A stretch of DNA of 64,000 nt from Piscinibacter gummiphilus (GTDB lineage: Bacteria > Pseudomonadota > Gammaproteobacteria > Burkholderiales > Burkholderiaceae_C). The notes beneath the pieces were generated by a model, which was not told where the DNA came from, did not search any database, and saw nothing but the letters and a program-made list of their open reading frames with translations. The first letter of the stretch is position 1. Every line of letters begins with the position of its first letter. The DNA lies in contig NZ_CP136336.1 in NCBI RefSeq assembly GCF_032681285.1, positions 310,001-374,000 on the forward strand, in the 5' to 3' direction. The position numbers and the translations under genes were made by a program. Positions 55,158-63,616 of the stretch are shown here, piece after piece.

Positions 55158-55871
55158 ATGAGCACACTCAACGCCGACCCCGCGGAACTCGCCCGTTTCA
55201 ACGCCCTGGCCGAGCGCTGGTGGGACGAAGACTCCGAATTCCGCCCCCTGCACCGCATCAACCCGCATCGCCTCGACTGGATCGATGCCCTGGCTGGCCT
55301 TCGCGGCAAGCAGGTGCTCGACGTCGGCTGCGGCGGCGGCATCCTCGCGGAAAGCATGGCCCGGCGTGGCGCCCGGGTGGATGGCATCGACATGGCCGCG
55401 ATGCCCTTGCGCATCGCGCGCGCCCATGCCGAGCGGGTGGGCGAAGCGAACGTCGCCTACGCCGACAGCAGCGCCGAAGACTGGGCGCAGCATCACGCCG
55501 GCCGCTACGACGTGGTCACCTGCATGGAGATGCTGGAGCACGTGCCCGACCCCGCCGCCGTGGTGGCAGCCTGCGCACGCCTGGCCAGGCCGGGCGGCTG
55601 GGTGTTCTTCTCCACCATCAACCGCAACCCGTTGAGCTACCTCGTGGCGATCGTCGGTGCGGAGCGGGTGCTGCGCCTCTTGCCGCGAGGCACCCACACC
55701 TACTCGCGCCTCATCAGGCCGGCCGAACTGCGGGGCATGGCCACACGTGCCGGCTTGTCGCTGCACGAGCAGCGCGGCCTCGGCTACAACCCGCTGACGC
55801 AGCGCTTCCGCCTGCACCGCTTCATGGGCATCGGCTACCTGCTGGCGATGCGGGCCGGCGCTTCAGCCTGA
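55158..55871 (+). CDS. ubiG: Ubiquinone biosynthesis O-methyltransferase
   Basis: A 237-residue class I methyltransferase that performs both O-methylations of ubiquinone synthesis. The UbiG start FNALAERWWDEDSEFRPLH, SAM motif VLDVGCGGGILAE, and MEMLEHVPDP, INRNPLSYL and GTHTYSRLIRPAEL are diagnostic. ATG at 55158 has GGAGGGAG upstream. It overlaps the convergent end of the lipid operon by nine bases. Confidence 0.94.
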   Translation: MSTLNADPAELARFNALAERWWDEDSEFRPLHRINPHRLDWIDALAGLRGKQVLDVGCGGGILAESMARRGARVDGIDMAAMPLRIARAHAERVGEANVAYADSSAEDWAQHHAGRYDVVTCMEMLEHVPDPAAVVAACARLARPGGWVFFSTINRNPLSYLVAIVGAERVLRLLPRGTHTYSRLIRPAELRGMATRAGLSLHEQRGLGYNPLTQRFRLHRFMGIGYLLAMRAGASA

Positions 55872-56303
55872 CGCGCGCTTCTTCAGCCAGCGCATCAGGC
55901 TGCCCACCAGCGGCAGCTTCTCGTACAGCTCTTCGGCAGCGTCCCAGTAGTCGCGGTGGTGCAGGATGAGTCCGATCGCGTCGAGCTGCAGCTGCGAGCC
56001 GCCGTGCACCGTCTGCAGGCCCTCGCGGTAGCGCTTGAAGCGGAAGAGAAAGTCCCAGCTCAGGAAACACTGATCGCCTTGCACGATGACGTCGCGCACC
56101 ACGAAGCGCGGCTCGTCGAGCGCGTCGAACATGTGGCGGAAGACCTGCTGGACCGCCGACAGGCCGCGCACGTCGTTGAACGGGTCCTTGAAGTGCGCCT
56201 TTGCCGCATAGAACTCGCCGAGCCGCGCCACGTCGTCGCGCGTGAAGTGCTCGAAAAGCTCGACGATGCGTGCGACACGCGGATCGGCCGTCTTCTGCGT
56301 CAC
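55863..56303 (-). CDS. NTF2/SnoaL-like protein, last gene of the lipid operon
   Basis: A 146-residue NTF2-fold protein: RVARIVELFEHFTRDDVARL, FYAAKAHFKDPFNDVRG, and RDYWDAAEELYEKLP, typical of the nuclear-transport-factor-2-like proteins found next to CFA/DUF1365 genes. The GTG at 56303 overlaps the SDR stop (GTGA) with GGAG ten bases upstream; ATG at 56318 is an alternative. NTF2-like proteins act as isomerases, dehydratases or ligand holders. Here the role is unknown but surely linked to the operon. Confidence 0.82.
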   Translation of the reverse strand: MTQKTADPRVARIVELFEHFTRDDVARLGEFYAAKAHFKDPFNDVRGLSAVQQVFRHMFDALDEPRFVVRDVIVQGDQCFLSWDFLFRFKRYREGLQTVHGGSQLQLDAIGLILHHRDYWDAAEELYEKLPLVGSLMRWLKKRASG

Positions 56304-57073
56304 AGGCCCGTGCTCCATCGGATGGCGCGGAAGTAGAGCGCGTCGCTCACGTGCGTCAATGCCTTCAGGCACAAGGTGAAGCGCTTGGGGAAATGGATCT
56401 CGAAGCGCCCTTGCGCCCAGCCCTTCAGGATCTCTTCGGCCGCCTGCTCGGGTGTGAGCAAGGCCGGCATCGCGAATTCGTTCTGCGCGGTGAGCGGCGT
56501 TTCGACAAACCCGGGGTTGATGACCGACGCTCCGATGCCCAGCGGCTCCAGGTCGAGATAGAGCGTCTGGGCGAGATTGATGAGGGCCGCTTTGGTCGGC
56601 CCATACGCGAGCGAATTGGGCAGTCCGCGGTAGCCGGCCACGCTGGAGACGAGGCTCAGGTGCCCGCTCTTTTGCTGCAGCAGCACCGGCAGCACCGCAT
56701 CGAGCAGGTGCAGGGCGCCGATGTAGTTGACCTGCTGGTGGCGCACCGCTTCGTCGAGGTCGAACTGCGTGGCCCGCAGCGCCTTGTAGTAGCCGGCGCA
56801 GTAGAGCGCGAGGTCGATGCGGCCGTGGTGCAGCACCAGCTGCTGCGCCGCGCGTGACACCGCATCGCGGTCCGTCACGTCCAGCGGCAGCCCCACGCTG
56901 CCGGGGTGGCTCTTCTCGAAGGCCTTGAGCGCGCCCTCGTTGCGGGCCGACACGATGACCTGTGCGCCGCGGGCATGCAGTGCGGCGGCGGTGGCGCGGC
57001 CGATGCCGGTCGAGGCGCCGACGAGCCAGACCACCTGGCCGTTCCAGTCGGTGATGCGAGGGTTGAGTGGCAT
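56300..57073 (-). CDS. Short-chain dehydrogenase/reductase
   Basis: A 257-residue SDR. The cofactor motif is WLVGASTGIGRATAAAL, the NNAG-like region YCAGYYK, and the catalytic Ser and YxxxK are in SSVAGYRGLPNSLAYGPTK. The TGxxxGxG and downstream features suit NADP(H). It probably reduces or oxidises a hydroxy/keto group of a lipid intermediate or a related metabolite. It follows the DUF3833 gene by one base and precedes the NTF2-like gene with a four-base overlap. Confidence 0.9.
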   Translation of the reverse strand: MPLNPRITDWNGQVVWLVGASTGIGRATAAALHARGAQVIVSARNEGALKAFEKSHPGSVGLPLDVTDRDAVSRAAQQLVLHHGRIDLALYCAGYYKALRATQFDLDEAVRHQQVNYIGALHLLDAVLPVLLQQKSGHLSLVSSVAGYRGLPNSLAYGPTKAALINLAQTLYLDLEPLGIGASVINPGFVETPLTAQNEFAMPALLTPEQAAEEILKGWAQGRFEIHFPKRFTLCLKALTHVSDALYFRAIRWSTGL

Positions 57074-57074
57074 G

Positions 57075-57602
57075 TCAGTGGGCCTTCTGGAACGCGAGCG
57101 TGACTTCGCCGAGGCGGATGCCGAACTTGCTCATCACCGCGCGGTTGAGCATCACACGCTCGTCCATCAGGTACATCCAGTCGTCGAACTGCACCTCGTA
57201 GACCTTGCCGTCCACCGGCAGCTTCAGCGTGTAGTTCCACTGGAAGGCGTTGCCGGCCACCTGGCCGTTGGCCGTGCCGACCACGTCGTCGGCCGTGCCG
57301 GTGTAGCGCCCGCCGTCGAGCTTCTTCAGGCGCCAGATGCGGCGGTCGGTCTTGCCGTCGCTGTAGGTGAAGGCCTCGTCGAGCGTGCCTTCGTTGCCCA
57401 CCCATTGGCACTTCATCAGCACGGTGAAGCGGCGCACGACCTTGCCGGAGCGGTCGCTGAAGATGCCGTGGGCGACCACGTCGCCATTGAAATAGCGCTG
57501 CAGGTCGAGCGTGGGTTTCTCCGCGGCGTAGTCTTGCGGCGTTGGCGATGCGCACCCGGTGAGGGCGAGTGCGCAAGCGAGGGTGAGGGCGAGTCTTTTC
57601 AT
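57075..57602 (-). CDS. DUF3833 lipoprotein
   Basis: A 175-residue lipoprotein: signal with lipobox LALTGCAS (Cys17), then DUF3833 hallmarks LDLQRYFNGDVVAHGIFSDR, VVRRFTVLMKCQWVGNEGTL, RIWRLKKLDGGRYTGTADDV and WMYLMDERVMLNRAVMSKFG. The predicted fold is a lipocalin-like barrel, so lipid binding at a membrane face is plausible. The start overlaps the MFS stop by four bases (ATGA). Confidence 0.9.
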   Translation of the reverse strand: MKRLALTLACALALTGCASPTPQDYAAEKPTLDLQRYFNGDVVAHGIFSDRSGKVVRRFTVLMKCQWVGNEGTLDEAFTYSDGKTDRRIWRLKKLDGGRYTGTADDVVGTANGQVAGNAFQWNYTLKLPVDGKVYEVQFDDWMYLMDERVMLNRAVMSKFGIRLGEVTLAFQKAH

Positions 57603-58873
57603 TGAAGTTCCCGGTGACGCCACAGCAGCGCTGCGGCAATGAGCTTGAGCACGCACGGCAAGACGCAGTACGCGAGGGTGAGGGCCTGCAAGGCGTCGGC
57701 ACCCTTCGTGCCGGGCGCATAACCGAAGGCCTGGAGCACCGGCAGGGCGATGCCCGCGGCGAGCGCGAGGTTGAGCTTGGTCGCGAAGTTCCACCAGCCG
57801 AAGTACGCCCCTTCGGCGCGGCCCGCATGCCCTGCGCGCTGCACGACGCCGGCCAGCAGCGCAGCCGGCAGGGCGAGGTCGGCGCCCAGCGCGATACCGC
57901 TCAGCACGCAGATGGCGGTGTAGGCGGCGACGTCACCGGCCGACAGCACGGCCGCCCAGGCGAACACCAGCACCGACAGCCCCATGCCCACGAGCCAGCT
58001 GCGCGCCAGGCCTAGGCGCGCCACGAGCCGCACCCACAGCGGCACCGACACGGCCGCCGCGGCGAAGTAGCTGGCAAGGAAGAGCGGCTCGTAGGCTGGT
58101 GCCTGCAGGCGGTCTCGGATGAAGAAGAGCACCAGCGTGGCGGGCACCGCACTCGCGATGCCGTTGAGCAGGTAGACGGCGAGCAGGCGGCGAAACGCCG
58201 GGGTGCCGAACGGCAGGGCGAGCGAGTGCGTGGGCCACACCGCCAGCCGGCGCGGTGCGGGCGCCTGCCGCATGAGCGCCAGTGCGAGGCACAGCACGAT
58301 GGCAAACACCAGCGTGCTCACCTGCAGGCCGGCCGTCGACGGCAGCACGCTGGCCACCAACACGCCGCACAGCGCGAGGCCTTCGCGCCAGGCGACGACC
58401 CCCGCGCGCTCCTGTTCGTTGCCGCCCAGCCGCGCGCCCCAGGCCTGGTGGATGACGCTGATCACGCTGTAGGCGAGGTAGGTGACGACGAGCAGCCCCC
58501 CGCACCACACGAGCAGCGACGTGGTGCTCGCCGACACCGCGGGAAAGAAGAGCCCGCGAAAGCCGAGGGCCAGCACCACGGCGGCGCCGGCCATCGCGAG
58601 CCAGGCGGCGCGGGCCGAGCGGTCGAGCAGCGCATCGGCCCAGCGGCCGATCCACGGGTCGACGAACGCGTCGAGCAGGCGGGCGGCGAGCAACACGGCG
58701 CCGAGCGCGGCGAGTGGCACGCCGAACTCGGCGGCGTAGTGGTTGGGTAGGGTGACGTAGAGCGGCAGCGCGACGAAGGCCAGCGGGAAGCCGGGCGCGC
58801 CGTAGCGCAGGCCCTGCCAACCCCGCGCCGGCGGCGACGAGGACGCTGACGACGATGAAGCGAGGGCGCTCAT
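57599..58873 (-). CDS. MFS transporter, GPH-type carrier
   Basis: A 424-residue carrier with about 12 helices. The start LRYGAPGFPLAFVALPLYV and loop RLLDAFVDPWIGRWADALL match the glycoside-pentoside-hexuronide:cation symporter group (melibiose-type). In Rhodobacter sphaeroides a protein of this type is encoded inside the RpoE-controlled operon with the same partners, so a role in moving a lipid or lipid precursor, rather than sugar, is plausible but unproven. Both ends overlap their neighbours by four bases. Confidence 0.85.
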   Translation of the reverse strand: MSALASSSSASSSPPARGWQGLRYGAPGFPLAFVALPLYVTLPNHYAAEFGVPLAALGAVLLAARLLDAFVDPWIGRWADALLDRSARAAWLAMAGAAVVLALGFRGLFFPAVSASTTSLLVWCGGLLVVTYLAYSVISVIHQAWGARLGGNEQERAGVVAWREGLALCGVLVASVLPSTAGLQVSTLVFAIVLCLALALMRQAPAPRRLAVWPTHSLALPFGTPAFRRLLAVYLLNGIASAVPATLVLFFIRDRLQAPAYEPLFLASYFAAAAVSVPLWVRLVARLGLARSWLVGMGLSVLVFAWAAVLSAGDVAAYTAICVLSGIALGADLALPAALLAGVVQRAGHAGRAEGAYFGWWNFATKLNLALAAGIALPVLQAFGYAPGTKGADALQALTLAYCVLPCVLKLIAAALLWRHRELQ

Positions 58874-59397
58874 GCCAGGCCCAGCAAGGACCGCCGCAGC
58901 GCCGGTTCGGAGCTGCGGGGCGACAGCCAGATGCCGATGAAGAGCCGCGCGAACGCGGCATCGCGCACCTCGCGCCCGGCCTTGCCGTTGACGAAGAAGC
59001 GAATGCCTTCGCCGGGCCGGTAGAGGCCGGTGATGCGGTCGCCGGCCTTCACGTCGGGAAAGGCCTGCTCCATCGCGGCGAGCCAGGCGTTGCCCTTGTC
59101 GGCAGGCACCTCGCCGACCTTGCGCATTTCGACCAGCGACCGTTCGGCGATCAGCTTGCCGACGAGTTCACGCGCGTATTCGAGTTCGAGCGCCACCGGG
59201 TGCAGGGCGTAGTCGTCGGGCTTGAAGCCCTCGGTCACCCACAGGCGGGCGTCGTAGACACGCAGGCCGAAGAAGCGCAGCAGGCCCTGGCCCTGCAGCT
59301 TGGCGCCCGGCAGCTCGGCGCTCAGCTCGACCGGCCGCGACTGTGCCGCCCAGGGTAGGGCCAGCAAGGCGGCGAGGAGCGGGCGGCGCGCGAGCAT
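58870..59397 (-). CDS. Chalcone-isomerase-like periplasmic protein
   Basis: A 175-residue protein with signal peptide (RRPLLAALLALPWAAQSRP). The chalcone isomerase fold region reads LQGQGLLRFFGLRVYDARLWV, LELEYARELVGKLIAERSLVEM and GLYRPGEGIRFFVNGK. Bacterial and plant members of this fold without the catalytic residues bind fatty acids, so this may be a periplasmic fatty-acid carrier for the operon. It starts two bases after the CFA-family gene and overlaps the MFS gene by four. Confidence 0.87.
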   Translation of the reverse strand: MLARRPLLAALLALPWAAQSRPVELSAELPGAKLQGQGLLRFFGLRVYDARLWVTEGFKPDDYALHPVALELEYARELVGKLIAERSLVEMRKVGEVPADKGNAWLAAMEQAFPDVKAGDRITGLYRPGEGIRFFVNGKAGREVRDAAFARLFIGIWLSPRSSEPALRRSLLGLA

Positions 59398-59399
59398 GG

Positions 59400-60626
59400 T
59401 CAGTCGCGCTGCAGGGTGAACTGCATGACGCCGGTGTTGCCGGTGGCGAACGCGGCCTCGCAGTAGCCGAGGTAGAACTCCCAGATGCGCATGAAGCGGG
59501 TGTCGAAGCCGAGGCGGCGCACCTTGGTTTCTTCGGCGAGGAAACGCTCGCGCCAGCGCTTGAGCGTCTCGGCGTAGTCGGCGCCGAATGAGAGCTCATT
59601 CACCACACGCAGGCCGGCTTTCGCTGCGGCTTCGCGGAAGGCGCTCGGGCTCGGCAGCAGGCCGCCGGGGAAGATGTACTGCTGGATGAAGTCGGTCGAC
59701 TTCACGTAGCGCTCGAAGAGGTCGTCGCGGATCGTGATGCTCTGGATGCAGGCCTTGCCGCCGGGCTTGAGGTTGCGCTTGAGCGTGTCGAAGTAGCCGC
59801 TCCAGTATTCGCGGCCGACGGCTTCGAACATCTCGATCGAGCAGATGGCATCGAAGGGGCCGTCGGTGATGTCGCGGTAGTCCTGGAAGCGCAGCTCGCC
59901 CGCGAGGCCGGCGTCGCGCAGGCGCTGCTGGCCCCAGGCGAGTTGTTCGCTGGAGAGCGTCACGCCGGTCACGCTGGCGTTGAAATCACGCGCCGCGCTT
60001 TCCGCGAGTGCACCCCAGCCGCAGCCGATCTCGAGCACGCGGTCGCCGGCCTTCACATCGCATTCACGCAGGGCGCGCCGCACCTTGGCCCATTGCGCGC
60101 CGACGAGGTCACCGCTCGCATCGCCCTCGAACCAGGCGCTCGAGTAGTTCATCGTCGGGTCGAGCCAGAGGCGATAGAAGTCGTTGCCCAGGTCGTAGTG
60201 GGCGTGGATGTTCTTCTTGCTGCCGGTGCGCGAGTTGCGGTTGAAGAGGTGCCGCACGCGGTAGAGCAGCGAACCGCACCAGCTGCCGTAGACCACCTGC
60301 TCGATCTCGTCGCGGTTGGCGATGAAGAGCTTGAGCAGCGTGGTGAGGTCGGGCGTCGTCCAGTCGCCGGCGATGAAGGTCTCGGCGAAACCGATGTCGC
60401 CCGACTTGAGTGCGGCGCCGCAGACGTTCCAGTTGCGCAGGCGAATGGCGGCGCGCAGACCTTGGGTCTGGCCGAAATGGAGTTGCGTGCCGTCAGGCAA
60501 CTGCACGTCGAGGCTGCCGTGGCGCAACTGGGCCAGCAGGCGGAAGACAGCGCGTGCGGTGGCCGGGGCGCTGTCGGGCAACGACCGCTGCAGCGGGTTG
60601 AGGGAGGCGTGGGTGGTGGTGTTCAT
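59400..60626 (-). CDS. CFA-synthase-family phospholipid methyltransferase with altered active site
   Basis: A 408-residue SAM enzyme of the cyclopropane-fatty-acid-synthase family: HYDLGNDFYRLWLD, VLEIGCGWGALAE, FEAVGREYWSGYF, DFIQQYIFPGG. In true synthases a bicarbonate is held by Cys in YSCAYW, Glu in MFEHxG, His in LLHTI and Tyr near the C-terminus. Here the first site is YSSAWF (Cys to Ser), the Glu in MFEAVG and the Tyr (ADYAETL) are kept, and the His is replaced by Gln (IQSIT). This suggests methyl transfer to an unsaturated chain without ring closure, as for UfaM of furan fatty acid synthesis. Third gene of the operon, 24 bases after DUF1365. Confidence 0.9.
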   Translation of the reverse strand: MNTTTHASLNPLQRSLPDSAPATARAVFRLLAQLRHGSLDVQLPDGTQLHFGQTQGLRAAIRLRNWNVCGAALKSGDIGFAETFIAGDWTTPDLTTLLKLFIANRDEIEQVVYGSWCGSLLYRVRHLFNRNSRTGSKKNIHAHYDLGNDFYRLWLDPTMNYSSAWFEGDASGDLVGAQWAKVRRALRECDVKAGDRVLEIGCGWGALAESAARDFNASVTGVTLSSEQLAWGQQRLRDAGLAGELRFQDYRDITDGPFDAICSIEMFEAVGREYWSGYFDTLKRNLKPGGKACIQSITIRDDLFERYVKSTDFIQQYIFPGGLLPSPSAFREAAAKAGLRVVNELSFGADYAETLKRWRERFLAEETKVRRLGFDTRFMRIWEFYLGYCEAAFATGNTGVMQFTLQRD

Positions 60627-60650
60627 CGTCTGGGTCTCTCGCAGGGGCGC

Positions 60651-61442
60651 TCAGCGGGTGATGAAGGCCCGAGGCGGCTCGGGCTTGCGAAAGAACGGCA
60701 CGTGCCGGGTCCACAACTTGAGCGCCTGCCAATGGATGCGCGCGACGACGAAGACCGTCATCAGCGGCATGCCGAAGAAGGCGCGCAGCGCCGAAGACCG
60801 GGTCAGCGGCTCCAGCCGGCCCGCCACGCTGGTCTTCAGCAGCGGGCCCTGCTCGTCGTCGTGGTCGATCCGAACCACCGTTCTTTGTGCGTCCTTACGC
60901 GCGCCGTCCGCCTGTGGATGCAGTGCGGTGCGCAGGAAGCGAAAGCGGTAGCGGCCGCTGACGCTGCAAAAAGGCGAAACGTGGAAAACCTTGTCGGCCT
61001 GCAGTTCCTGCCCGAAGGCGAGGTGCTCGCCGCGCAGCAGGTAGCAGTGGCGTTCGCCGAAGGTGTTGTTGACCTCGACCACGATGGCGGCGAGCGAGTC
61101 GTCGCGGCGGTGGCAGTACCAGAAGCTCACCGGCTTGAAGGTGTGGCCGAGCACGCGCGGGTAGCAGTGCAGCCAGACCTCGCCGTCGGCGTCGGTGATG
61201 CCTTCGCTCGTCAACAGGTCGTCGACCCAGGCGAGGCTGTCGTTGCGGCCGTCGCCATGGTCGCGGTCGTGGAAGCTGATGAGGCCGAAGCGGTTGCGCC
61301 TGAGCTGCGTCGACGCCTGCGCGCGCAGGCTGCGCATCGGCAGCATGAGGAAGTAGGTGCGGTAGCTGAAGTCGTTCACCACCGGGCGCAGGCGCGTGTG
61401 GCGCACCTGGCCGGAGCCGATCATCGGAGCGGCGGTGCTCAT
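60651..61442 (-). CDS. DUF1365 protein (UfaO-like)
   Basis: A 263-residue protein. DUF1365 is recognised by GQVRHTRLRPVVNDFSYRTY, KPVSFWYCHRRDD and VEVNNTFGERHCYLL. ATG at 61442 overlaps the stop of the FAD gene (ATGA), so the two are coupled, as almost everywhere this family occurs. In Rhodobacter sphaeroides a protein from the corresponding operon is needed for oxygen insertion during furan fatty acid formation; assigning the same role here is inference. No signal peptide; an amphipathic C-terminal part could touch the membrane. Confidence 0.88.
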   Translation of the reverse strand: MSTAAPMIGSGQVRHTRLRPVVNDFSYRTYFLMLPMRSLRAQASTQLRRNRFGLISFHDRDHGDGRNDSLAWVDDLLTSEGITDADGEVWLHCYPRVLGHTFKPVSFWYCHRRDDSLAAIVVEVNNTFGERHCYLLRGEHLAFGQELQADKVFHVSPFCSVSGRYRFRFLRTALHPQADGARKDAQRTVVRIDHDDEQGPLLKTSVAGRLEPLTRSSALRAFFGMPLMTVFVVARIHWQALKLWTRHVPFFRKPEPPRAFITR

Positions 61443-62752
61443 GCGGCCTCGCGCGCCGGCTCGTGCAAGCGCACAGGCAGCGATTCGCCGACCCAGCGGC
61501 GCCGCATGCCGTTGACCACCGCCTGCGCCGACATCAGGCCGTCTTCGTGGAAGCCGTAGCGTGTCCACGCGCCGCAGAACCAGGTGTGTTGCTGGCCTTG
61601 CAGGGCTGGCACCTTCGCCTGCGCTGCAATCGCGGCGCGGTCGAACACCGGGTGGGCGTAGTCGATCTCGGCGTGCACGCTGGCCGCGTCGGGCTCACGC
61701 ACCGGGTTCAGCGACACCAGCACCGGCTGCTGGAAGGGCAGCGGCTGCAGCTTGTTGAGCAGGTAGTGCAGGCAGACCGCGGCTTCTTCGCGCGGGGCGT
61801 CGGTGGCGCGCTCGTAGTTCCACGCTGCCCAGGCGAGCGGGCGTTGGGGCAGCACCGAGGTGTCGGTGTGCAGCACGGCGCGGTTGCGGTGGTAGCGGAC
61901 GGCGCCGAGCACGGCGCGCTCGTCGGGCGTGGCGTCGGCCAGCAGCGCAAGCGACTGGTCGCTGTGGCAGGCGAGCACCACTTCGTCGAAGCGCTCGCTG
62001 CCGTGGTCGGTGACGACGGTCGCCCCCTGCGGGGTGCGGCGCACGCTGCGCACGGGGGTGTTGAGACGCCGGTCGGCGATGCGCGGCAGCATCTTGCGCA
62101 CGTATTCGCGGGCACCGCCCGTGACGGTGAACCAGCGCGGCCGGTTCGCGACCTGCAGCAGCCCGTGGTTGTGGCAGAAGCGGATCATGGTCGCGATCGG
62201 GAAACGCAACATCTGGTCGGTCGGGCATGACCAGATGCAGCCGATCATGGGCAGGAAGTACCAGTCGCGGAACGCGGCCGAGAAACGGTGTTCGGCGAGG
62301 AACTCGCCGATGGGCTGCTGCAGTTGGGCGTCATCGCCGCGCACGGCGAGCGTGGTGGTGAGCCGGTTGAAGCGCAGGATGTCGCGCAGCATGCCGAGGA
62401 AAGCCGGCCTCAGGAGGTTGCGGCGCTGCGCGAAGACGGTGTTGAGGTCGCTGCCGCTCCATTCCAGGCCGAGGTCGGGCACCTGCACGGAAAACGACAT
62501 GTCCGACGGGACCGTGGCCACCCCGAGTTCACCGAAGAGGCGGATCAGCTGGGGATAGGTGCGCTCGTTGAAAACGAGGAAGCCGGTGTCGACACCGTGC
62601 GTCACCCCATCGAGCGTGAGATCGACGGTGTTGGTGTGGCCCCCGAAATAAGAGCCGGCCTCGAACAGCGTGACGTGGGTGTCGTCGGCCAGCGAGTACG
62701 CGGTGGCCAGACCCGAGATGCCCGAGCCGATGACAGCGACGCGGCGGCTCAT
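61439..62752 (-). CDS. FAD-dependent oxidoreductase/desaturase (flavin amine oxidase family, UfaD-like)
   Basis: A 437-residue flavoprotein. The N-terminal dinucleotide motif is RVAVIGSGISGLATAYSLAD, then the EAGSYFGGHTNTV region; the C-terminal FAD contact is CGAWTRYGFHEDGLMSA. This amine-oxidase-type family is always found next to DUF1365 and CFA-like genes and includes a desaturase acting on methylated phospholipid chains in Rhodobacter. It is the first gene of the eight-gene operon. A 309-base region upstream holds a promoter-like site resembling extracytoplasmic sigma factors, and a G-rich tract. Confidence 0.9.
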   Translation of the reverse strand: MSRRVAVIGSGISGLATAYSLADDTHVTLFEAGSYFGGHTNTVDLTLDGVTHGVDTGFLVFNERTYPQLIRLFGELGVATVPSDMSFSVQVPDLGLEWSGSDLNTVFAQRRNLLRPAFLGMLRDILRFNRLTTTLAVRGDDAQLQQPIGEFLAEHRFSAAFRDWYFLPMIGCIWSCPTDQMLRFPIATMIRFCHNHGLLQVANRPRWFTVTGGAREYVRKMLPRIADRRLNTPVRSVRRTPQGATVVTDHGSERFDEVVLACHSDQSLALLADATPDERAVLGAVRYHRNRAVLHTDTSVLPQRPLAWAAWNYERATDAPREEAAVCLHYLLNKLQPLPFQQPVLVSLNPVREPDAASVHAEIDYAHPVFDRAAIAAQAKVPALQGQQHTWFCGAWTRYGFHEDGLMSAQAVVNGMRRRWVGESLPVRLHEPAREAA

Positions 62753-62836
62753 GCCACCGCCCGCGTCAGGCTGTGAGGGGCGTGCGGCGCGCCGGAACGT
62801 GCGGGCCGCGAAATAAAGATTGCTGCACAGCGCCCC

Positions 62837-62871
62837 GGGGGGAACAAGGGAGGGAGGAGGGAGGAGGAAAA
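62837..62871 (+). other. G-quadruplex-forming motif upstream of the lipid operon
   Basis: Four G tracts of at least three (six G, then GGG, GGG, GGG with loops of 5, 1 and 4 bases) fit the canonical G3N1-7 pattern on the forward strand, which is the template strand for the operon. The motif lies between the proposed promoter and the first gene. Confidence 0.5.
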
Positions 62872-62958
62872 CCGCCCCGGGATTCCAACCGGATCAACCG
62901 GCTGGCTGTGCAGCATAGAACTGGTCGCTACCGGCCCACAGTGTGCGCCGGCCTGGGG

Positions 62959-62986
62959 TTTGAAGCACTCCCCAGGTCGAAGTTCC
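62959..62986 (-). promoter_or_regulatory. ECF (RpoE-like) promoter of the lipid operon, candidate
   Basis: On the reverse strand GGAACTT (62986-62980), a 16-base spacer and TCAAA (62963-62959) match the consensus of E. coli-type RpoE promoters. It lies about 200 bases before the FAD gene. The remaining 62753-63061 region has no other gene I can support. Confidence 0.5.
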
Positions 62987-63061
62987 CTGAATCTGATGTT
63001 GGCGTCGGCCATGGCCCACTCCGTTGTGAACTGAGTGGTATGAAATATAACTCATCAGTCT

Positions 63062-63616
63062 TCATTTTGCATCAAGCAGTTTCTCGACCGTGCTGACGAA
63101 GACGCTGCTGTCGGGTGACGTGGTGCTGCCGAAACTGTGGACGCTGCGTCCGTCGCGAGCGACCACATACTTATGGAAGTTCCAGCGGGGCGCTTCGCCG
63201 GTGATCTGCTGCAGCTCGGCGTAGAGCGGATGGCGCTGTGGACCGGCGGCCGCCGCCACGCGCGTCTTCACGAACATCGGGAACTTGACGCCGTAGGTGT
63301 TCTCGCAGAACTCGGCGATGGTCTTGTTGTCGCCCGGCTCCTGCGAGAAGTCGTTGGACGGGAAGCCCAGCACCACGAGGCCGCGGTCCTTGTACTTGCT
63401 GTGCAGCGCCTCCAGCCCCTTGTACTGGCCGGTGAAGCCGCAAAAGCTCGCGGTGTTGACGATCACCACGACCTTGCCGGCGTACTGGCACAGGTTTTGG
63501 GGTTTCTCGTCCTGCAGGCGCGGCACCTCGCGCTTGAGCAGAGGCGGGCACTCCGCCGCCTGGGAGGCGCCGGCCACGAGGGCGAGGCAGACGAACAGCA
63601 GGTGTCGAACGGGCAT
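63062..63616 (-). CDS. Periplasmic glutathione peroxidase family protein
   Basis: A 184-residue protein with signal peptide (RHLLFVCLALVAGASQAAEC). The peroxidatic Cys is in NTASFCGFTGQYKGLE, and the Trp/Asn region in PRWNFHKYVV is kept. The usual FPCNQF is FPSNDF here. GGAGG precedes the ATG at 63616. Members reduce lipid hydroperoxides, using thioredoxin more often than glutathione. Periplasmic location beside a membrane-lipid operon on the same strand suggests a shared role in protecting envelope lipids. Confidence 0.9.
   Translation of the reverse strand: MPVRHLLFVCLALVAGASQAAECPPLLKREVPRLQDEKPQNLCQYAGKVVVIVNTASFCGFTGQYKGLEALHSKYKDRGLVVLGFPSNDFSQEPGDNKTIAEFCENTYGVKFPMFVKTRVAAAAGPQRHPLYAELQQITGEAPRWNFHKYVVARDGRSVHSFGSTTSPDSSVFVSTVEKLLDAK

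Follow-up and report, generated by a model that had tools for sequence, protein, structure and literature searches.

A probable extended furan-lipid operon with a candidate lipid-handling module and a conserved structured RNA in front of it in Piscinibacter gummiphilus

The 64,000-nucleotide (nt) stretch of the Piscinibacter gummiphilus genome analyzed here (contig NZ_CP136336.1, positions 310,001 to 374,000; hereafter the window) contains eight consecutive minus-strand genes at 55863-62752, preceded by a structured RNA element. Taken together, these features are best explained as an extended furan-lipid operon with a lipid-handling module and a stand-alone structured RNA in front of it, and we consider this joint explanation, which draws on sequence comparison, likely to be correct. 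The window encodes together the three enzymes expected of the furan pathway, a flavin adenine dinucleotide (FAD) oxidoreductase, a DUF1365 protein, and a CMAS methyltransferase, and the DUF1365 match is the only one in the genome. In Rhodobacter sphaeroides, UfaM, UfaD (RSP1091), and UfaO (RSP1090, the DUF1365 protein) turn cis-vaccenyl chains into a methylated furan fatty acid, and the Rhodopseudomonas palustris homologues RPA2571, RPA2570, and RPA2569, placed in R. sphaeroides, are sufficient for the same product (PMC7380195). The original prediction, made from the letters of this DNA, had proposed methylated or furan lipid chemistry, and this guess is supported at the sequence level by the UfaD-UfaO-UfaM character of the first three genes.

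Gene content and conservation of the operon

In order of transcription, and all on the minus strand, the operon encodes a UfaD-like FAD oxidoreductase (61439..62752; 437 amino acids, aa; Pfam Amino_oxidase PF01593 and NAD_binding_8 PF13450), a UfaO-like DUF1365 protein (60651..61442; 263 aa; PF07103, 269.6 bits), a UfaM-like S-adenosylmethionine (SAM) methyltransferase of the cyclopropane fatty acid synthase (CFA) superfamily (59400..60626; 408 aa; CMAS PF02353, 275 bits), a Chalcone_3 protein with a signal-like N terminus (58870..59397; 175 aa; Pfam 54.3 bits), an MFSD2A-like carrier of the MFS_2 (GPH) type (57599..58873; 424 aa; PF13347, 156.1 bits), a DUF3833 lipoprotein with the lipobox LTGC and Cys17 (57075..57602; 175 aa; PF12915, 244.6 bits), a short-chain dehydrogenase/reductase (SDR) that is RSP1087-like (56300..57073; 257 aa; adh_short PF00106), and a SnoaL/NTF2-like protein (55863..56303; 146 aa; SnoaL_2 PF12680, 58.7 bits). 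The same eight families had been named beforehand, and the Pfam assignments agree with them; the predicted junctions of -4, 24, 2, -4, -4, 1, and -4 bases are identical when recalculated from the open reading frame (ORF) coordinates.

Gene order was compared across 80 loci of named close relatives and two wider surveys. In the order survey, DUF1365 is present in 64 of 150 genomes, and 60 of the 63 loci outside the window's own genome were taken (G027, G086, and G127 were left out). In the phylum survey it is present in 94 of 299 genomes (G412 is below the cut-off and G268 is a fragment), and 60 of the 88 loci not already taken in, by recount, were analyzed. UfaD, UfaO, and UfaM are consecutive on the same strand in 59/60 order-level, 47/60 phylum-level, and 76/80 named loci, and the exact eight-gene order recurs in 30/60, 3/60, and 47/80, respectively. 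The three phylum-survey loci with the full order (L114, L124, and L126) belong to the window's order, and several of the named relatives that lack it stop at a contig edge. The association of these genes exceeds chance, as is evident from the recurrence of both the trio and the eight-gene order. Conserved synteny had been set beforehand as a test of the original prediction, and the counts at order level show that the arrangement is not scattered.

Variation around this order is also structured. The SDR gene is on the same strand in 46/60 order loci. Gamma-type loci mostly read SnoaL-SDR-UfaD-UfaO-UfaM, and many continue, after a gap, with Chalcone_3-DUF3833; compared with the window, the SnoaL-SDR pair comes first and no MFS_2 gene is assigned, and the SnoaL-like gene adjoins the SDR gene in both. 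The gamma cfa/phr clusters (Shewanella SO_3374-3386, Pseudomonas syringae PSPTO_1121-1114, and the Pseudomonas pmlR1 region) share core genes with the window and are regulated by light or oxidative stress (PMC4336711, PMC5507510, PMC9758184). Loci from another class, such as L141, L146, and L148, read UfaD-UfaO-MFS_2-DUF3833-SDR, a gene order that fits the R. sphaeroides operon RSP1091-1087, in which UfaD and UfaO are followed by the lipoprotein RSP1088 and the SDR RSP1087, with ufaM located separately (RSP2144) (PMC5507510, PMC7380195). Between L141/L148 and the published R. sphaeroides sizes, UfaO (250/252 versus 250 aa), DUF3833 (191/186 versus 186 aa), and SDR (245/243 versus 245 aa) are close, whereas the carrier ORF is longer (428/432 versus 402 aa); place and size lead us to infer a carrier in RSP1089 and a DUF3833 protein in RSP1088.

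Relative to R. sphaeroides, the window has ufaM in the same operon, added Chalcone_3 and SnoaL-like genes, a glutathione peroxidase gene (Gpx) upstream, and an RNA with a sigma-E-like promoter in place of the ECF11 promoter (ECF, extracytoplasmic function). Five of the eight genes, those for UfaD, UfaO, UfaM, the lipoprotein, and the SDR, have counterparts already assigned to the RpoE-ChrR core regulon (PMC5507510), which makes the enzyme side less novel than the original prediction suggested. As judged from its sequence, the operon is an extended form of a furan-lipid system that is already known.

The Gpx gene, which also has a signal-like N terminus, is the upstream neighbor in the window (63062..63616, minus strand; PF00255, 103.9 bits), and is found on the same strand in 34/80 named, 14/60 order, and 2/60 phylum loci. 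At the other end, a plus-strand gene for a UbiG/UbiE-like methyltransferase converges on the SnoaL-like gene, with a tail-to-tail overlap of 9 bases (55863-55871). Two records titled Akkermansia and Methylotenera (L202 and L220) hold Burkholderiales-like ufa genes and are probably binning errors.

Accessory genes and the candidate lipid-handling module

The distribution of DUF3833 closely follows that of DUF1365. Among the 150 order genomes, 51 have DUF3833, and DUF1365 is present in 51/51 of them (Fisher 3e-28, uncorrected for kinship); among the 299 phylum genomes, 69 have DUF3833, and 66 of these have DUF1365 (Fisher 1e-39, a value inflated by kinship). The matches without DUF1365 are in G183 (with internal stops), G299 (48 bits), and G369 (24.3 bits), and DUF1365 genomes without DUF3833 number 13/64 in the order and 28/94 in the phylum survey. 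This co-occurrence persists in genomes where the genes are unlinked, including G031, G076, G111, and several of the gamma class. In G031, G076, and G111, Chalcone_3 and DUF3833 are both far from DUF1365 but close to each other, adjacent in the first two genomes and ∼1.3 kb apart in G111; the pair thus behaves as its own module.

The lipobox Cys17 of DUF3833 is invariant in 41/41 sequences, and the structural model of the protein (predicted local distance difference test, pLDDT, 91.2) is a calycin-like beta barrel of the lipocalin/calycin fold. The Chalcone_3 model (pLDDT 90.6) is predicted to adopt the chalcone-isomerase (CHI)/fatty-acid-binding-protein fold. Operonic Chalcone_3 proteins are divergent members of their family, scoring 25-68 bits, compared with mostly 108-195 bits (few at 77-81) for other copies; one low-scoring copy, G113:C126, sits away from the operon. 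Two canonical Chalcone_3 genes occur elsewhere in the window's own genome (C1:5036422-5036925 and C1:244289-244777).

For the carrier, a family profile searched against PDB retrieves MFSD2A (8.9e-32) ahead of MelB (9.6e-20), which places the family nearer to MFSD2A than to sugar carriers of known structure, and the DxxxD motif and a late Lys are aligned. Single-sequence PDB searches with the window carrier, and likewise with the Chalcone_3 protein, returned no chain. MFSD2A, a lysophosphatidylcholine symporter, is thus the best PDB relative by profile, though a distant one.

The predicted folds, the MFSD2A-like profile, and the co-occurrence of DUF3833 with DUF1365 favor a lipid-handling role for these proteins, while a shared fold, on its own, does not establish function. 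The strongest competitor, to which we assign a substantial probability well short of even, holds that the accessory proteins detoxify or sequester oxidized furan fatty acid products, or are ligand-binding enzymes, and move no lipid. Between them, the two folds also cover isomerases, spirocyclases, and haem proteins: the structural matches of DUF3833 include the spirocyclases OssO/OlmO and nitrobindins, and those of the Chalcone_3 protein are mostly isomerases, with Aim18/Aim46 among them. This reading is also consistent with R. sphaeroides, in which single deletions of RSP1087, RSP1088, and RSP1089 left the fatty acids unchanged, so that these genes are not needed for synthesis there (PMC7380195). 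The MFSD2A-like profile of the carrier speaks against it, as does the position of the carrier between two secreted proteins in a conserved order, which fits a transport module. The enzyme core is known, whereas among the literature matches listed no function emerged for the accessory proteins that accompany it, and no title or abstract beginning describes one for DUF3833.

The structured RNA, its putative promoter, and its genomic context

The interval between Gpx and ufaD folds much better than its shuffles (z -3.24) and contains, on the minus strand, a three-way-junction RNA (model R1; 62812..62931; covariance model score 120.4 bits) defined by alignment and covariation. By alignment, its helices are P1 (62915-62905/62831-62821), P2 (62901-62898/62892-62889), and P3 (62882-62873/62842-62833), the last closing a pyrimidine loop of about 29 nt (62872-62843), and a U-rich tail runs from 62820. 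The same layout is found upstream of ufaD in relatives in which the stem letters differ. Across 33 aligned sequences, double changes occur in 22/25 pairs, amounting to 122 double-change cells compared with 31.2 ± 5.5 in shuffled alignments and ≤23 in slid ones, and RNAalifold recovers identical helices from this alignment; fitting 93 sequences to the model gives corresponding values of 320 and 61.9. The shuffles used for the recurrence of the layout upstream of ufaD and for the promoter pattern below were 2-mer block shuffles. The 93 contexts comprise the four loci of the order survey, the 29 that scored next best, and 60 taken at intervals further down the list, with the weakest rows unrepresented. 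Conservation in these 93 loci is higher in the loop (0.89) than in the paired columns (0.80): CCTCC is present in the loop of 93/93, and CTCCTCC in 91/93 RNAs. TTT occurs in the tail of 79/93.

R1 is largely restricted to the window's family, where 216/299 genomes (about 72%) have it, as a single copy in all but G693, which has two. The covariance model finds it in 40/81 sources consisting of the window and the named loci, in 2/60 order loci (one weak), in 1/60 phylum loci, and in 4/150 order genomes, all four from the window's family; the large genome surveys used stricter filters, which lose weak matches. Outside the family, weak matches occur in L034 (43.5 bits) and in L223, titled Oxalobacteraceae (44.5 bits). 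A search of Rfam 15 with window positions 62650-63120 (E ≤ 10) and 20 further loci (E ≤ 1) returned no family on the R1 strand; one weak overlap, RF01075 (14.6 bits, gathering 80), is on the opposite strand. Among the literature matches listed, titles and the beginnings of abstracts do not describe R1; a Burkholderiales-1 motif (Weinberg, 2010) is listed without an Rfam number (PMC2864571). R1 is apparently an unnamed, conserved candidate regulator, unless it corresponds to Burkholderiales-1.

Upstream of R1 is a sigma-E-like promoter, GGAACTT-N16-TCAAA (62959..62986, minus strand), which matches by sequence the sigma-E (ECF02) consensus of GAACTT, a spacer of 16-17 nt, and a TC-type -10 box (PMC4336711). 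The original prediction had placed its upper limit at 62986, the first base of the GGAACTT box, and made no mention of an RNA gene within 62752-62986. Taken alone, GGAACT-N16-18-TC does not reach significance in the window (5 sites versus 2.98 expected), and significance comes from conservation: GGAAC-N17-19-TC precedes R1 in 82/93 loci (shuffle mean 2.4, largest 7). The pattern is found in 50/56 R1 copies with ufa genes downstream and in 32/37 without, and before ufaD in 29/39 named loci that have R1 (3.9 expected) but in only 1/35 named relatives that lack it (3.2 expected). Because it is about equally frequent with and without ufa genes, and rare before ufaD where the RNA is missing, the promoter goes with the RNA. 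A further element considered in front of the RNA, TTATATTTCATACC, was dropped, as it is present in just 3/93 loci.

The genomic context bears on whether R1 serves the operon exclusively. One reading, that R1 serves the ufa operon alone as a cis-acting leader (a riboswitch or attenuator), sensing a ligand or ribosomes and controlling read-through into ufaD, is in our judgment unlikely, albeit not negligible. It accounts well for the spacing, as ufaD (47 measured loci, longest ORFs) starts 6-90 nt past the model end in 46 loci and, in the remaining locus, 6 nt before that end, for the terminator-like stem and U tail, and for the scant room left for a second promoter. It does not account for the 37/93 copies without a same-strand ufaD or ufaO start within 1.6 kb (a gene was scored as downstream when its longest ORF begins inside that distance; 33/93 loci had flanks of only 1.5 kb), nor for the 20/93 loci in which a convergent glutathione S-transferase (GST) gene is next, of five families looked for (∼50 nt off in L241). 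G093 and G348 have R1 and no DUF1365 was found in them, and in G133 the two are on different contigs. In G093 and G133, R1 lies behind another gene, which we take to be glnE, and a convergent GST gene is next. Given the copies without ufa genes, the conserved promoter, and the genomes without DUF1365, a ufaD riboswitch is unlikely as the only role of the RNA. Sequestration of the ufaD Shine-Dalgarno sequence by the loop in cis was also considered and rejected, in the window only, since the 55 bases up to the ufaD start contain no GGAGG.

The preferred reading is that R1 is probably a stand-alone small RNA (sRNA), which in the window would also act as the operon leader; it occurs at sites far from any ufaD gene and in genomes that lack DUF1365. 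With no more than 90 nt between the model end and the ufaD start in the measured loci, transcription probably enters the operon by read-through. The CCUCC-rich loop resembles the 16S anti-Shine-Dalgarno sequence. In this respect R1 is similar to the alpha-r14/cuckoo RNAs (NfeR1 and CcsR), which combine an unpaired CCUCCUCCC anti-Shine-Dalgarno motif and fixed loops with variable stems; alpha-r14 has three hairpins, each with CCUCCUCCC (PMC10746234), whereas R1 is a three-way junction whose pyrimidines form one long loop, and it has a sigma-E-like promoter, a different bacterial order as host, and no Rfam match. E. coli has sigma-E-dependent sRNAs, among them MicA, RybB, and MicL. These share with R1 a sigma-E-type promoter and a U-rich 3′ end and differ from it in structure and loop sequence, membership having been checked via Rfam only.

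Other neighbors of the RNA were noted. Gpx is ≤700 nt upstream of R1 in 46/93 loci. In L246 (1709-3124), a gene for a MerR-type regulator (PF13411) is divergent beside Gpx upstream of the RNA, and ORFs similar to it form a cluster of 17 nearest neighbors over the 93 loci, although the ORF as called also takes in antisense of Gpx; because spurious ORFs in GC-rich DNA add noise, this neighbor clustering was used for hints only. LitR-type regulators mediate light control of ufaM in Pseudomonas (PMC9758184).

Lipid product, control, and proposed mechanism

The methyltransferase matches NCBIfam CFA synthase models (NF053839, 271.6 bits), which lends some weight to the view that the operon makes another methylated lipid (cyclopropane or branched) and not a furan fatty acid, although all of these matches stay far below the cut-offs. 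We take Cys139, Glu239, His266, and Tyr317 to be active-site residues of E. coli CFA, and this set is not found complete in UfaM-type proteins (n = 186, in which the window is counted twice and near relatives are included; 16 low-scoring rows, 14 paralogues and two fragments, stand apart). Aligned with E. coli CFA (6bqc), the window UfaM has Gln at the position of His266 and Ala at that of His240, replacements shared by 186/186 and 185/186 UfaM-type proteins, respectively. The Cys139 position is Ser, Ala, or Gly in 181/186, Ser being frequent among the paralogues as well, and Glu239 (186/186) and Tyr317 (183/186) are kept. These residues point to a CMAS-family protein that is no ordinary cyclopropane synthase. 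With the constant company of UfaD and DUF1365, the latter of which forms the furan in R. sphaeroides (PMC7380195), they make the alternative product improbable. The 14 CMAS paralogues close to ufa genes elsewhere (L033, L035, L036, L040, L044, L101-L106, L115, L119, and L142) retain both CFA histidines; this second CMAS gene may encode either a genuine CFA synthase or a FufM-like enzyme (dimethyl furan).

Least probable of all is a singlet-oxygen response run by RpoE-ChrR (ECF11), the arrangement known from R. sphaeroides. In other bacteria the ECF11 core regulon includes five of these families (PMC5507510), and furan genes are likewise assigned to it (PMC6852236), but in this genome the ChrR model TIGR02451 reaches 22.3 bits against a cut-off of 124.5, and no TGATCC-N16-CGTA promoter precedes the operon, the best window site (8/10) being located inside the RNA element and often reached by shuffles. 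ECF11/ChrR control, which the original prediction had cited for R. sphaeroides, was dropped on these negative motif and model searches. The full motif is upstream of UfaD in 8/120 loci (0 in 1,200 single-base shuffles), and all eight belong to classes of the phylum other than that of the window. Near the start of C1 in the window's own genome (L032:500-1995), far from the operon, an ECF sigma gene precedes one for a Cupin_7 protein (ChrR-cupin-like, below cut-off), a possible redox sigma/anti-sigma pair.

In the mechanism we propose for the furan-lipid operon, UfaM would methylate an unsaturated phospholipid acyl chain, UfaD, a proposed methyl-acyl desaturase, would desaturate the methylated chain, and UfaO, a proposed furan-forming oxygenase, would close the furan ring using O2, as suggested by family, gene order, and residues; the demonstration of these steps comes from R. 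sphaeroides itself and from genes of R. palustris (PMC7380195). The carrier would most likely work with the CHI-fold protein of the periplasm and the DUF3833 lipoprotein to bind and move the furan lipid, or its oxidized or lyso products, between membranes, and the SDR and SnoaL-like proteins would probably process oxidized products. The RNA, estimated at about 150 nt, would begin at the sigma-E-type promoter and end at the stem and U-rich tail. As an sRNA of the envelope-stress response, it would most likely act in trans, its CCUCC-rich loop pairing with the Shine-Dalgarno sequences of other transcripts, and read-through past its end would carry transcription into ufaD.

Several points weigh against this reading. 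The transport component may be wrong or conditional, given that the R. sphaeroides deletions described above had no fatty acid phenotype, and the likeness to R. sphaeroides is one of gene order and sizes, as opposed to a direct sequence comparison. The 3′ stem of the RNA is a three-way junction and not a classic hairpin, and was missed by a simple terminator scan; the named loci with R1 show the promoter pattern in only 29/39 (3.9 expected); and anti-Shine-Dalgarno pairing is something we infer from the loop only.

A more far-reaching version, offered tentatively and with somewhat less than even confidence, is that a new stand-alone envelope-stress sRNA family became, in a large part of the family, the read-through leader of a complete furan-lipid operon in which carrier, CHI-fold protein, and DUF3833 lipoprotein make up a dedicated export route for oxidized or furan lipids. 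If true, a single stress signal would have two effects, broad repression of translation in trans and activation of membrane-lipid repair in cis. A lipid-handling hypothesis that can be tested follows from the tie of the accessory genes to DUF1365, from the likeness of the carrier to MFSD2A, and from two folds of the lipid-binding type, and the targets of the RNA would reveal how envelope stress, translation, and membrane-lipid chemistry are coupled in a large environmental family.

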